Source: Massariosphaeria phaeospora (Eukaryota; Ascomycota; Dothideomycetes; Pleosporales). Taken from it: 64,000 nt of DNA. A program made the translations under genes and the position numbers. Location: positions 1,116,001 to 1,180,000 of the forward strand of contig JAADJZ010000003.1 in NCBI GenBank assembly GCA_011032825.1, given 5' to 3'. Under the pieces are notes generated by a model. It was not told where the DNA came from. It searched no databases and saw only the letters and a program-made list of their open reading frames with translations. Below, one piece after another: positions 28,825 to 35,065 of the stretch. How positions within the stretch are numbered: the first letter of the stretch is position 1; every line of letters starts with the position of its first letter.

Positions 28825-28899
28825 CTCTGTATACTACTATATAAAACTAAACTATCAAGAAAAATTATCTTATTATAGTAATGTACCTACGCTGGCGAA

Positions 28900-29100
28900 T
28901 GGGTAGGGGGTACCCATCGATGGGTATAGGTTGGGTTATGGGTCGCACAGACCTTGGGTTAAGGTTGGGTCATGGTTACTCTAGCGTAGGTAGGGGTTAG
29001 GTTAGGGTCATCAAAGCGTTGGGTTATGGTTTGGTTAGGGTGATCGAAGCTTGGGGTTAGGGTTGGGTTAAAGGTTACATCTGGGTTATAGGGTTATGTG
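28900..29100 (+). repeat. Left subterminal telomere-like repeats of the hAT element
   Basis: Many imperfect copies of GGGTTA, GGGTTAGG and TTGGGTTA in one orientation. The mirror array sits at the other end. Spacing is irregular, unlike a true telomere. Confidence 0.75.
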
Positions 29101-29253
29101 TTAGCTTAGAGAGTCGCTAAGGTTTAGAGAGTTATCACAGCTAGTTATCACATTTAAGAACGCGCAAATCGTATTTACGAAGTTCTGTCATTACAGCTAC
29201 TATTCACGTACAAGGACACAAGTGGAGTAGGAAGAGTTGTATTACTACAGATA

Positions 29254-31946
29254 TTAATCACGGTAGCGTAGAGGTCGAGCGCGCTTCCGTGGCGGAAGTG
29301 GCGAATCCTCTTCTCCTGAATCATCATCCGACAGAGTTATCCTTGATCGTAAAGGCCTAGATGTAGGCCCAGATGTAGGCCCAGATGACGGGCCAGGTGT
29401 AGGCCCAGATGTTGGCCCAGGTGTTGACCCAGATGACGGGCCAGGTGTAGGCGTAGATGTAGGCCTAGGGGTAGAGTCTACATACTGCGCTCGAAGGTCA
29501 AGTAGGTCCTCAACCTCGTCACATGGTAGTTCCTCATTATCTGCCTCTGCAGACTGAGGGACGCTGTCCTGTCCTTCCTCTTGAGCAATACAGTTTCTCA
29601 ATATCATAATCCGCCGAATCGTCTGGGCAGCAAGTCGGTGCCTTCTATCGCCAATAACATCCTTAGCAACGTTGAATTCGCGCTCGACCCCAACCTGGGC
29701 AATCTGTACTGCAAGTACATCTTTTGCAACTTGTGATAGGCGTGGATACGTTTCTTCATTTACTTGCCACCATTTAAGGATATCAAAAGAGGCACTGGCG
29801 CGTACGCAGGCAATGCTTAGATAGGCCTCCCCTTCTTGGCGAGTTGGGCCCTTTCCTTCTTCTGTTTCGTCTAGGTTGACAGATGAAAAACTGCTTGGCA
29901 GCGACTGGGGCAGAGGCTTTGGTCTCCGAAACCATTCACTACCCTGGGGTCTAGTTGTACGGGACGGAGGGATAGGAGTAGGGGCAGGGCGAGTATCGTC
30001 GTCATAGCGATCGAGGTAATCAAGAAACTCTTCGCGGTAGGTGTGCTTGTCTTGATTATCCCAGGTTTCGTCCTAGACGCGCAGTTAGCATATGACTGTG
30101 ATAAGTAACTGTGATAACTATACCTCGTACGCCGTGAGCTTTTGGCTAGGGTCCAGAACAGTAGCACAATTAAATAAGAACCCTCGTTCATCGCCAGTCC
30201 TCCCATAATACTTGCTAAGTTTAGCCCTTCCTTTATCTGCAGCGGCTCGTACAACTGTAGGCCACTCAGAAGTATCTCGATTTTCTGTGTCGTCGTCAAG
30301 TTCGTCCTGCATACTGTCTAGGAAGTTGAAAAGACGGTTGTACATAAGCCAGATATACTGGACTTGTGGCCTGTGGTTTTCACTTAAGAAGTTTGTTGCG
30401 TCCTTAAAGTTCTTAAGCATATCAGTAATTAACTTTAGGTGGTGCCATTCGTCTGGTGTTAATTTTAGTCGCCTAAGGTCGCGGAAGTCTACCTCTGCTG
30501 TATCCTCATTATCTGGGATACTGCCTGCACTGATTGTTATCTTAAGTGCGATCTCTTTCACTAGCCATTCGTTGATAAATCTCTGGATCTTAAGTGCGCG
30601 CTCGCACATATCGTAGGTTGAATTCCATCGTGTTTTAACGTCGCGGATAACAGACATCCGTTGTTTTAGTGGCAAGTGTAGTTGCGTAGCGATAAACCGC
30701 TCGTATCGTTGGGACGACGAATCAATTGCTATGCAGATAGCTCGAAGCTAGGTGTGTGTTAGGCTGTGATAAAAGTATGTAATAACGCACTGTATACCTT
30801 GCGGAGAGAGTTTGGAACAGAGATATTCGCCTGCACGTCGCTCAAATGGCGTCTCTGTAGTATTTCTCCTGGTTCAACGTCGGCACCTGCTGATGCTGCA
30901 AGCTTGAGGTGTGAAATGATATCTTGAACAACAAGGTTGATGATGTGAGCAAGACACGGGATTGAGTTTTCTGATGAGCTCCAAGGTATGTCCTCTGCCT
31001 CTAGTTGCTGTTCAATAACACGACCAAGCGTTTTGTTTTCCCCAGCATTATCCGCAGTGATTGCTAGAAGGCGTAATTTGATGCCAGTGTCTGAGAGTAC
31101 TTGCAGTATATCAGCAGCTGCAGCAGCACCAGTATGTCTTCCGCGTAGAGGAACGAAATCTAGCAACTTCTCCCGAAGCTGCCAGTTGCAGTTAACGTAG
31201 TATCCTTTAACTGCAAGGAAACTAAGATGATTAGAAGCAGACCACCCATCTATCGCAATTGAGATCTTGGTTGACTGGCCAATGTCATTAAGAAGTGATG
31301 CTTTAGCCTCTTCAAATCGTTCATAGAACATTCCCTGGAATTTGAATCGGCTAATACTTGGAATATCAGGTCGAAGAAATTGAAGAAATCGCTGGAATGA
31401 GGGCCGCTCAATTGTTCGAAAAGACCAGTTGCTATATATAACTACTCGTACTAGTTCCCGTTCAAAGGCCTGGGTCGAATATGGTGGTACAATAGTAGTA
31501 AATTGAGGTTGACGTAGTGCTAGCTGTAGACGAGGTTGAGAGTGAACAGGAGCAGGCGTTCTTCGGCAGGTCCTAGATTCGAGGTGGTTGAGTAAGTGTT
31601 TAGTCCCGATAGTCTTAACTGCTGGGTGCTGAAGAGCAAGGCCGCAATTATAGCAGAATACGTAGGGGTGGCCATTACTAGAATCAGCAGCTTCTTCAAA
31701 CTGTAGCCATACCTGACCAGTGCGTACAGCAGAGTTCCATCGCGGATTTGCTGTCTCTGGGTCTAGAGCCCACTTAGTAGAACTCCACCACATTTTCCAC
31801 GCAGTTACTACTGCCTCTCGTTCTGTATCATCCTCAATATGCGTAGAAGGATATTTTACTAGATGTAGTTTATTCCTTTCTCCCCCTCGGACGAATTGCT
31901 CAGCGTCGAATTTAAATGGACGAACAAGTGGCGGAAGTTCTGCCAT
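29254..31946 (-). CDS. hAT-family transposase
   Basis: Transposase of the surrounding element. Three exons (31946-30798, 30747-30124, 30072-29254), all in phase 0, join to 863 aa with no stop. Introns are 50-51 nt with GTATAC/CCTAG and GTATAG/TCTAG ends. A BED-like zinc finger lies at about residues 98-121 (C98, C101, H117, H121). The RNase-H-like catalytic part contains ISIAIDGWSASNHLSFLAVK (first Asp), LAITADNAGENKTLG (second Asp) and the IPCLAHIINLVVQD C-x2-H motif. The C-terminal dimerisation domain reads WWQVNEETYPRLSQVAKDVL and then VGVEREFNVAKDVIGDRRHR, diagnostic of hAT. A Gly-Pro-Ser-Thr tandem repeat and a basic tail end the protein. It appears unmutated by RIP, unlike the elements around it. 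Confidence 0.93.
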
Positions 31947-32327
31947 GTTTATGACAAAAGGTATAGTACAAGAGCGCAGGTACTGTGATAATAGACTGTA
32001 ATAATTGGTGTTAGAGTAGACTGAAGATAGAGGACAGGTACATTGCCAAAGGAGAACACGCAGATTGTCAAAGGAAAACAGAACATGCCTCTCTGCCTGC
32101 GAAATATTGCTGACGTCCAAGCGCAAAGGCTGAGGCAGTAATGCAACCGAGATTAGGGCTAGAATTAAAGCCGCAGTAGTAGCGCCTCAATCTTACAGTT
32201 CTAATTGGGTTATACTTGCTAATCTGTCAATCGCAATGTCATGCACGTTTCAGGCCGCGTCATAGACAGTAGATACTAGCTGTGTTCATGCTAGCGACGT
32301 CTTAATTTACATAGGGGGTAGAGGGCC

Positions 32328-33646
32328 TTAGGTCTGCGCCTCCTCATGAGCGTCACCATCGTCAGAGAAACCCTCCCAATCTGAATACTCCACCGACTCA
32401 GTCTGCTCCACCACCTCAGTCTGCTCCACCACCTCATCCACCACCTCATCCTGCTCCTCATTCTCATCCTTATCCTCAACCTCTTCCTCATCTTCACTAG
32501 AGGACTCGTCTGCTTCTGCTAACGCCTTCCTCCACTGATCTTCTGTCTCATATTCGTCTTCACACTCATTGTAGAACGCATCAATTTCTGAGTCGCCACT
32601 TGCCTCTTCCTCACACTCATCAATTGTAGGCGCTGGAATATACGGGCTGTCGATATCTTCATAGGCATCGTCGCCGTCAACGCGCAGTTCGAGAGGGGGC
32701 GTAGGCTCGCGTGGGCTGGTGCAGTTAGTATAGGTATGTGATAAACCGCTGTGATAACTTACTTCCAGTCCTCAGCAGTTACTAGTGTCAGATCCTCTGG
32801 AGTCAACGTCTTCACAAACTCTTGCCAATCCATTTTAGCCTCCTCGTTCTCAAACGAATTATTCTTTAACTTGGCTAATCCGTCTGAGTAGATACGTCGC
32901 ATAATCCTATCAGTAGCCCCGCCAGCGCCAAATATTCGCGACATTGGCTGATTCTTAATCTTCCTCTTGTCTTCTGGTGCTTTGGCGATCTGTTCAAGGA
33001 TGTTTCCGTGCTGTCGGAGGTCAACATCGTGATAAATACGGGCCCACTTTTTATGGGCAAGGCCAAGTTTTGCTTGAAGCCACTCAACTGCGTATTGTAA
33101 GTACAATAACGTGATAAACTAATATGATAACTTACCGCTCTTCTGTGCGCGGTAGCGTTGCTCATCTAGAAGCTCAAGTTCAGTTGCTAACTGCTTCTTC
33201 TGGTCGTGCGCAGACAACGCAGTAAACTCCTCCTTCGCCTTAAGCCTCTTCTTAAGCTGGTATTTTGCTTGCCGATCTCCTGCACTAGCATCTGCAATAG
33301 CCTTTCCTTCAGCACTCAGGTGAGCTGTCCGATCTCTCTGAGCAGTCGCGCGGGCAGTATCGCTCAATTGACTCTTAGACAGTAGCTTGTAATGTGTAGG
33401 GCGCCCTCTTCGTGATCCAACGCAACCGCGATCCGCTAGTACGCTGAGGACTTCGTGCTCTTCAGACTCAAAGCCCTAAGTCTGTTAGCAGATGCTGTAA
33501 TAAACTTCTGTGATAATTACATTTGTAAGCGCCTTCCACTCCGCCAGCTCAAACCCAGTCGGAACCTCAATCTCGTGAGGCGGAAGCAACTTATTATCAA
33601 GCTCGTAGTCCATCTCGTCGTCAAGCTCCTGCTTAATTGCGGCCAT
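32328..33646 (-). CDS. Acidic-tail protein carried by the hAT element, unknown family
   Basis: Four exons (33646-33521, 33475-33136, 33087-32763, 32715-32328) join in frame to 392 aa; introns are 45-48 nt with GTAAKT donors and CTAAC-like branches. I do not recognise a domain. The N-terminal ~40 residues are acidic and hydrophobic, then GFESEEHEVLSVLADRGC, a basic GSRRGRPTHYKLLSKSQ segment, a long charged helix (RQAKYQLKKRLKAKEEF, ATELELLDEQRYRAQKSG) and EWLQAKLGLAHKKWARIYHD. The last ~70 residues are extremely acidic (SSSEDEEEVEDKDENEEQDE). A basic coiled-coil body with an acidic tail is common in histone chaperones, and its divergent neighbour is a histone, so a chaperone or partner role is a reasonable guess but only that. 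Confidence 0.75.
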
Positions 33647-33941
33647 CGTATTTGTGATAAATGTAGGTGATAATGAGGCTGGTTGTAGTACGTAGGTAGG
33701 TAGAGGCAGAAAGTGGGGTGGCAGAAGGTTAGGTGGCGGATTTACAGGCTAAATTCTGTGTGGGGTAGCCCGTGCGCTGCTGCAGAGGCTGCAGCCTTGG
33801 CTAGCGCCTCGCCGCCAGCCACTCAAAACACGCACCTCTGCTGCAGCCTCTGCAGCCTCCTCACCTGCCGTAATTATCACGAATAATTATCACGACTTTC
33901 TACTCTCTACACTACACCTATTACGCATCAATCCTTCCGCG
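33647..33941. promoter_or_regulatory. Bidirectional promoter between acidic protein and H3-like gene
   Basis: The 295-bp region separates two divergent starts. It contains a perfect 16-bp inverted repeat, GCTGCAGAGGCTGCAG at 33779-33794 and its complement at 33841-33856, and two copies of TTATCACGA (33873-33894), which in reverse contain TGATAA, the core of GATA-factor sites. Confidence 0.6.
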
Positions 33942-34494
33942 ATGGCCCGCACCAAGCAAACCAACCGCCACCACCCTGCTACCGGCGGCAAGGTTCCGCG
34001 AAAGCCTCTCGCAGCAAAAGCAACTCGCAAATCTAGCAATCCGTACAAGAACAAGAAGAAACCAACAACAGGTGGTGTGAAGAAGCCTTACTGCTGGAAG
34101 CAAGGGAGTAAGTTATCACAGCAGTCAATTGCAGCCTTGTCTCTAACAACATGCAGCTGTTGCGTTGCGCGAAATTCGACGATACCAGAAATCGACTGAG
34201 CTCCTCATGCGCAAACTGCCATTTAGTCGGCTAGTTCGCGAGATTGCGCAAGAGTTTAAGCCTGATCTACGCTTCCAAGCTAGTGCAATTGAGGCTATAC
34301 AAGAAGTAACAGAGGCCTTTCTGATCGGCATCTTCGAAGGTATAGCTTCCTACCTGTTGCTAGGTGCAGGGCTAACTTTAACAGATACCAATATTAACGC
34401 CATACACGCGAAACGGGTGACGATCAACACGAGGGACATGAATCTAGCACAGAGATACTACAAGAAGTACAAGGAGGGTTCGCAGCAAATGTAG
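33942..34494 (+). CDS. Histone H3 variant carried by the hAT element (no K9)
   Basis: Three exons (33942-34107, 34157-34339, 34385-34494) join in frame to 152 aa, against 136 for canonical H3. The first residues are MARTKQT as in H3 (K4 present), but the next residues are [10 protein letters not shown] instead of the usual ARKSTGGK, so K9 and S10 are replaced by His. K14-, K18- and K23-like lysines remain, and TRKS keeps a K27 equivalent. After an insertion ([10 protein letters not shown]), TGGVKKP resumes. The fold is well kept: [63 protein letters not shown]. Loop 1 has the canonical H3 length, unlike CENP-A. The C-terminus is a longer basic [12 protein letters not shown] tail. Introns are 49 and 45 nt; host H3 genes also commonly have introns, so retro-origin is not implied. 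Confidence 0.93.
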
Positions 34495-34679
34495 GAGCTG
34501 AAGTCTAGTTGCTGCTTGTTCTAGCGGTATAAGGCTATAATGATTCTGAATTTTCTAGCGATACCTAGCGTAGACGTTGCTCTGTACTTAGCTATTAGAA
34601 TGCAACTGATCCTACGCTGTGATAACAATCTGTGATAAACTTAAGCAACCTGTACTCTGCTAACGTCGAAATACAACAT

Positions 34680-34880
34680 GTAAACTCTAAATATAACAAC
34701 CCAACTATAACCCAACCATAACCTAGAGCCCGTGCGAGATAACCCAACCTTAACCCGAGGTCTGTGCGACCCAACCCAACCATAACCCTGTACTAGCGTT
34801 GAAAGATTGGGTATATGAGTAGGGTTGGGTCAGGGTTATAAAAAAGGCAACCCAACCTTAACCCAACCTCTACCCATTCG
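34680..34880 (-). repeat. Right subterminal telomere-like repeats of the hAT element
   Basis: Imperfect TAACCC, CCCAACC and TTAACCC units, mirror image of the array at the left end. Confidence 0.75.
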
Positions 34881-35065
34881 CCAGCCTAAATGTACCTTTA
34901 ATATCTTAATATTTCATCTTTTTCGTGTTGATGAGGGAGGATTTCCGTACTAAACTAGTATAGTATAGAATATACCTACAGGCTACAGTGTAACTTTGTG
35001 TACATAGAGATACCTCGCACTAAACTTTTTTTAGGGTGTATGCGGTATTACGGACTGCACCAATA

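Follow-up and report, generated by a model that had tools for sequence, protein, structure and literature searches.

A complete hAT transposon in Massariosphaeria phaeospora that carries a histone H3-like gene lacking lysine 9

The DNA considered here is a 64-kb stretch of the 42.08-Mb genome of the fungus Massariosphaeria phaeospora (contig C23; hereafter the window), and at positions 28888-34888 it contains a complete hAT transposon of 6,001 bp with a histone H3-like gene, H3L, among its genes. The terminal inverted repeats (TIRs) of this element (left end TACGCTGGCGAATGGGTAG; right end, as the reverse complement, TAGGCTGGCGAATGGGTAG) have 18 of 19 bases in common, and exact 8-bp target site duplications (TSDs) of AATGTACC lie on either side, at 28880-28887 and 34889-34896. 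The insertion point is within a small repeat, for which seven uninterrupted copies across the site were listed, and a single AATGTACC is present in all six that were fetched (four exact, two with one mismatch), as expected of empty sites. The element was inserted as one unit. An assembly artefact at the junctions, raised as a danger in an earlier note made from this DNA, is ruled out by the empty sites and by the many other copies of the element.

Three genes lie between the TIRs. The transposase gene (29254-31946, minus strand; exons 31946-30798, 30747-30124 and 30072-29254) is intact and encodes 863 residues, with a hAT dimerisation domain near the C-terminus (Dimer_Tnp_hAT, PF05699; E 4e-16; 59 bits against a cut-off of 21.4) and, at residue 98, a CX2C...H...C pattern that we take to be a BED-like finger. 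H3L (33942-34494, plus strand; exons 33942-34107, 34157-34339 and 34385-34494) encodes 152 residues, and its spliced product is identical throughout to P0002, an annotated histone H3 of M. phaeospora. On these points the earlier note, which had described a complete hAT with an intact 863-residue transposase and an intact three-exon H3-like gene inside its TIRs, was accurate. What it lacked is a further gene on the minus strand, here called the central gene, which lies between the transposase gene and H3L (32328-33646; exons 33646-33521, 33475-33136, 33087-32763 and 32715-32328). The 392-residue central protein has an RGRP motif and an acidic tail (C-terminal 122 residues, isoelectric point 4.05). 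Relatives were found, as protein matches only, in two other Pleosporales, P. seminiperda (44%) and B. sorokiniana (35%), and the three proteins have in common a GRP core, which two of them extend to RGRP, an acidic tail and EGFSD near the C-terminus. None of the three has a Pfam match above cut-off, and the central protein has no sequence match in the PDB at E 1. The P. seminiperda relative was modelled from an alignment of two sequences, and the predicted structure is confident only in long helices at about residues 81-180 (mean predicted local distance difference test score 61.9; predicted template modelling score 0.27).

The H3L protein is clearly a histone (PF00125, 124.7 bits), and it departs from the canonical H3 of its host (L009) in particular places. 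The two are identical at 65 of 89 residues in the fold core and at 31 of 44 in the tail, and H3L retains 81 of the 97 positions that are invariant among 16 H3s. Its tail keeps K4, K14, K18, K23, K27, K36 and K37; the position of K9 is occupied by His, both in the alignment to host H3 and in the HMMER alignment to a solved H3, and this is the sole change among the eight tail lysines. H3L therefore lacks the conserved K9-bearing tail of a canonical H3. It further differs from the host protein by tail insertions of 2 and 8 residues, by an altered C-terminus, by altered residues at H39-P43 (Y, C, W, Q) and by the positions of its introns. Nor is it a CenH3, being closer to host H3 (C23:2041772; 75%) than to a gene that we have labelled CenH3-like (C31:113244-113588; 51-53%). 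In a homologue search canonical H3s dominated the best 120 of 8,000 scored sequences, among which H3Ls of other species were not distinguishable, and a search with the tail only returned matches in M. phaeospora proteins only.

Several features bear on the age of the histone gene. Its introns split the codons equivalent to 45 and 106, whereas those of host H3 split codons 8 and 120, and direct recent capture of the host gene is ruled out by these positions together with the divergence. Four-fold degenerate sites match host H3 at 23 of 54 positions, where a fraction of 0.27 would be expected at saturation. Fungal H3 hardly changes. Because the core has been kept while silent sites are nearly saturated, in a protein that is nearly invariant in fungi, we infer purifying selection on H3L; most likely its divergence built up under such selection, either in the element or in an earlier paralogue. 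In addition, H3L intron 1 starts with GTAAGTTATCACAG, as does central intron 3, and this common opening suggests long residence of H3L in the element. On this evidence H3L would be an old, selected part of the element rather than fresh cargo.

The element is one of a family. At least 40 loci in the M. phaeospora genome, the window included, match its histone end (a lower bound, with 40 of the 85 candidates scored and pieces merged by hand). The 8-bp duplications differ between loci among 12 other full-length copies: four have matching duplications at 8/8 positions, three at 7/8 and five at 1/8 to 6/8, the poor scores having arisen through mutation or misplaced ends. The histone has therefore moved with the element, as the earlier note had proposed, and because so many loci match and the full-length copies have different duplications, it is not a single chance capture at a fixed host locus, the outcome which that note had said would count against it. 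One contig holds four copies in a stretch of about 58 kb (C49:1326759-1384410), which suggests local or nested insertion, and at C36:117881-120491 there is a shortened copy in which about 2.6 kb separates the left end from the histone end, recalling the 2.3-kb short form described in Pyrenophora tritici-repentis (Manning et al., 2013, PMC3538342).

Nearly all of these copies have been damaged by repeat-induced point mutation (RIP). Summed over the 12 full-length copies, 11,227 of 11,337 substitutions relative to the window copy are C>T or G>A (110 are other), with a preference for the CpA context (0.48 versus 0.25-0.29), and GC content is 0.27-0.38 as against 0.475 in the window copy. One copy (L042) differs from the window copy at 686 positions, all of them C>T or G>A. 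A RIP-type change is suggested in the window copy itself at only one site. Since the differences of the other copies are mostly of the RIP type and the window copy is nearly free of them, the latter is close to the source sequence; it is either the most recent of the insertions known here or a copy that escaped, and is probably the newest of the family. All 24 other full-length H3L genes examined are dead, with the start codon lost and 3-7 stops each (identical slices collapsed; the partial alignments L046 and L028/L052 left out), and a genome search gave 39 matches to the first exon at other loci, every one with a stop by hand count; some of them extend a few codons past the exon, into intron 1. 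These searches found one intact H3L in the M. phaeospora genome. The 24 RIPped genes read Tyr-Tyr where the window copy has His-His and, because this is the result of C>T changes in His codons, His at the K9 position is ancestral in the M. phaeospora family. At residue 28 the window copy has Thr and 10 of 12 copies have Ala.

The second feature that sets this element apart is a paired motif, TTATCACA-N5-TTATCACA. Within the window TTATCACA occurs 13 times, always inside the element, and a scan for the pair with up to three mismatches gave 11 occurrences, ten in the element (0-2 mismatches) and one outside it (three mismatches); in 100 simulated element-like sequences the mean was 0.05 and the maximum one. 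The ten pairs occupy both subterminal regions, a site upstream of each of the three genes, and all five introns of the transposase and central genes. Those without mismatches are at 29132-29152 (plus strand; starting 244 bp from the left end), 34618-34638 (minus; ending 250 bp from the right end), 30097-30117 (minus; transposase intron 2, 30073-30123) and 32737-32757 (minus; central intron 3, 32716-32762). Pairs with one mismatch lie at 30765-30785 (transposase intron 1, 30748-30797), 31984-32004 (38 bp upstream of the transposase start codon), 33496-33516 (central intron 1, 33476-33520) and 33653-33673 (7 bp upstream of the central start codon), all on the minus strand, and pairs with two at 33110-33130 (minus; central intron 2, 33088-33135) and 33874-33894 (plus; 48 bp upstream of the H3L start codon). 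H3L intron 1 holds a single unpaired TTATCACA (34113-34120, plus), and the element scan found none in H3L intron 2. The five transposase and central introns are only 45-51 bp long and consist mostly of the paired motif, as if they served as free space inside genes for keeping binding sites. Ordinary hATs such as Ac/Ds and Hermes likewise have 8-bp TSDs, short TIRs, a C-terminal dimerisation domain and repeated subterminal motifs; in comparison with these, the M. phaeospora element adds two genes, and motif pairs in its promoters and in all five transposase and central introns.

The pair also marks a small non-autonomous derivative, a miniature inverted-repeat transposable element (MITE) of 393 bp whose two ends are the same as those of the hAT element. 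It has no genes and keeps one paired motif besides the ends. Full-length copies, with examples at L042:1016-1408, L069 and L070, are spread genome-wide: with 40 of the 375 candidates scored there were, besides the query, at least 39 at 93-95% identity and one at 87%. In all four copies inspected the 8-bp duplications are exact (GCTAGGTG, ATTTTTAC, AAAATAAC and CTGCATAC). Two hAT copies (L040 and L042) contain one MITE each. As RIP has a lower size limit of roughly 400 bp according to Dhillon et al. (2019, PMC6710886), a length just under that limit may account for the survival of the MITE.

Across the 42 Mb of the genome there are 35 exact pairs and none of a reversed control: four in the window element, one in a RIPped copy, 28 in listed MITE copies (assigned by coordinates) and two elsewhere (C1:1504353 and C34:374146), so that 33 of 35 belong to the hAT/MITE family. 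Retention of a pair, in addition to the ends, by a MITE without genes speaks for a function in transposition, and the sites upstream of each gene suggest self-regulation; as a first guess, the binder would be the BED-like finger of the transposase. It is unlikely, in our view, that the pair is instead bound by a host protein such as a GATA factor. The reverse strand of the motif, TGTGATAA, does contain TGATAA, a GATA-type site, but the near confinement of exact pairs to this one family and the retention of a pair by the MITE point away from a host factor and towards transposition.

Histone-carrying hATs are not new, and the statement in the earlier note that no such element had been described does not stand. 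Manning et al. (2013, PMC3538342) described in P. tritici-repentis a hAT transposase, a central open reading frame and an H3-like gene between TIRs, and the M. phaeospora element is of the same kind: it has the same gene trio (in about 5.6 kb there and 6.0 kb here) and an H3L with N-terminal tail insertions that is neither H3 nor CenH3. As reported there, the P. tritici-repentis H3Ls are present in many copies, with expressed sequence tags, and the 10 long and 16 short elements are nearly identical with little RIP. In contrast, and comparing by description only, M. phaeospora has at least 40 loci of which one is intact and the rest RIPped. Dhillon et al. (2019, PMC6710886) reported hATs with an H3 in six species beyond P. 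tritici-repentis, namely P. fijiensis and five of its relatives. The elements of Pseudocercospora, Cercospora and Sphaerulina resemble ours in having H3-like sequence inside a hAT, an 8-bp TSD and copies killed by RIP; they differ in being about 9.5 kb long with one or two copies of H3 that stem from a transcript without introns, and in that the copies described are all dead. That paper finds no similarity at the nucleotide level between them and the P. tritici-repentis element. New here are an undamaged copy in a family with many dead members, a tail without K9, the array of paired sites, and a histone core kept despite near-saturated silent sites; in a limited literature search we found no report of a K9-less transposon histone or of a paired-motif array in such elements.

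How might such a histone serve a transposon? A silencing path in fungi runs through histone H3 lysine 9 trimethylation (H3K9me3), HP1 and DIM-2, as set out in PMC13297926, and a histone without K9 could not join it. H3L would enter nucleosomes with host H4, the absence of K9 would preclude methylation there, and expression and mobility would be favoured between cycles of RIP. The acidic central protein is a candidate partner or chaperone of H3L, and either it or the BED-like finger of the transposase might bind the paired motif at ends, promoters and introns. We therefore propose, with a probability of about 0.4, that this is an intact autonomous hAT with an old, selected histone that forms nucleosomes free of K9 methylation and thereby favours the expression and mobility of the element.

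A number of points weigh against this proposal. According to PMC13297926, RIP of new repeats in euchromatin is carried out by RID on its own and does not require H3K9me3, so loss of K9 need not stop RIP; any protection from RIP must also be weak, because all other copies examined are RIPped. In P. tritici-repentis, Manning et al. (2013, PMC3538342) wrote of the H3Ls that they 'may have undergone drift' and thought it unlikely that H3L transcription affects host gene expression, and Dhillon et al. (2019, PMC6710886) held the case in that species to be recent and independent. That K9 is the one changed lysine of eight could be chance; H3L is described here from its sequence, and the K9 change from the M. 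phaeospora family. Finally, the non-RIP changes common to several copies (nonsynonymous/synonymous: H3L 2/2, central gene 3/0, transposase 1/0) are too few either to show or to exclude selection in the recent lineage.

It is quite possible that the histone is a passenger, captured by transduplication and of no benefit, and that the window copy is intact only because it has not yet met RIP. This is the view published for the related elements (PMC3538342, PMC6710886), and it agrees with the death of every other copy examined and with recent-lineage changes that carry no sign of selection. However, it sits poorly with the constraint on the protein while silent sites are near saturation, with the element-like intron in H3L, with a paired site upstream of H3L just as for the other two genes, and with the occurrence of the same gene trio in another genus (PMC3538342).

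We consider it improbable that H3L acts in trans on host chromatin rather than on the DNA of the element, by way of its dose or as a decoy, titrating H4 or chaperones or upsetting silencing in general. The many H3L copies with expressed sequence tags in P. tritici-repentis (PMC3538342) would accord with such a role, and the altered H39-P43 residues together with the K9 change could disturb normal nucleosomes, but a single intact copy in M. phaeospora implies a small dose and no phenotype is known. Improbable too is the most elaborate form of our proposal, a chromatin kit in which a K9-less H3, an acidic RGRP-motif loader and a paired-site array would direct loading to the element and give silencing-proof nucleosomes on its own DNA.

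The small repeat around the element (further copies at L063-L068; flanks at 28.8-35.1 kb in the window) is about 400 bp long with inverted ends of its own (...TGCAGTCCGAATAACCGCATACACCC), and its left part has been replaced in the window by another repeat. A guess that open reading frames at 27.8-28.1 and 35.6-35.9 kb are pieces of transposase found no support, as they have no Pfam match.

In summary, if the histone proves to be a passenger, the M. phaeospora element would be one more case of transduplication followed by RIP. If instead the histone has been kept under selection, as we propose, the element would be a parasite of a rare kind, one that brings along a nucleosome part itself. The idea that H3Ls give rise to altered chromatin was already raised in 2013 (PMC3538342); with an undamaged copy, a tail without K9, a conserved central protein and an array of paired sites to work from, that suggestion becomes specifically testable.

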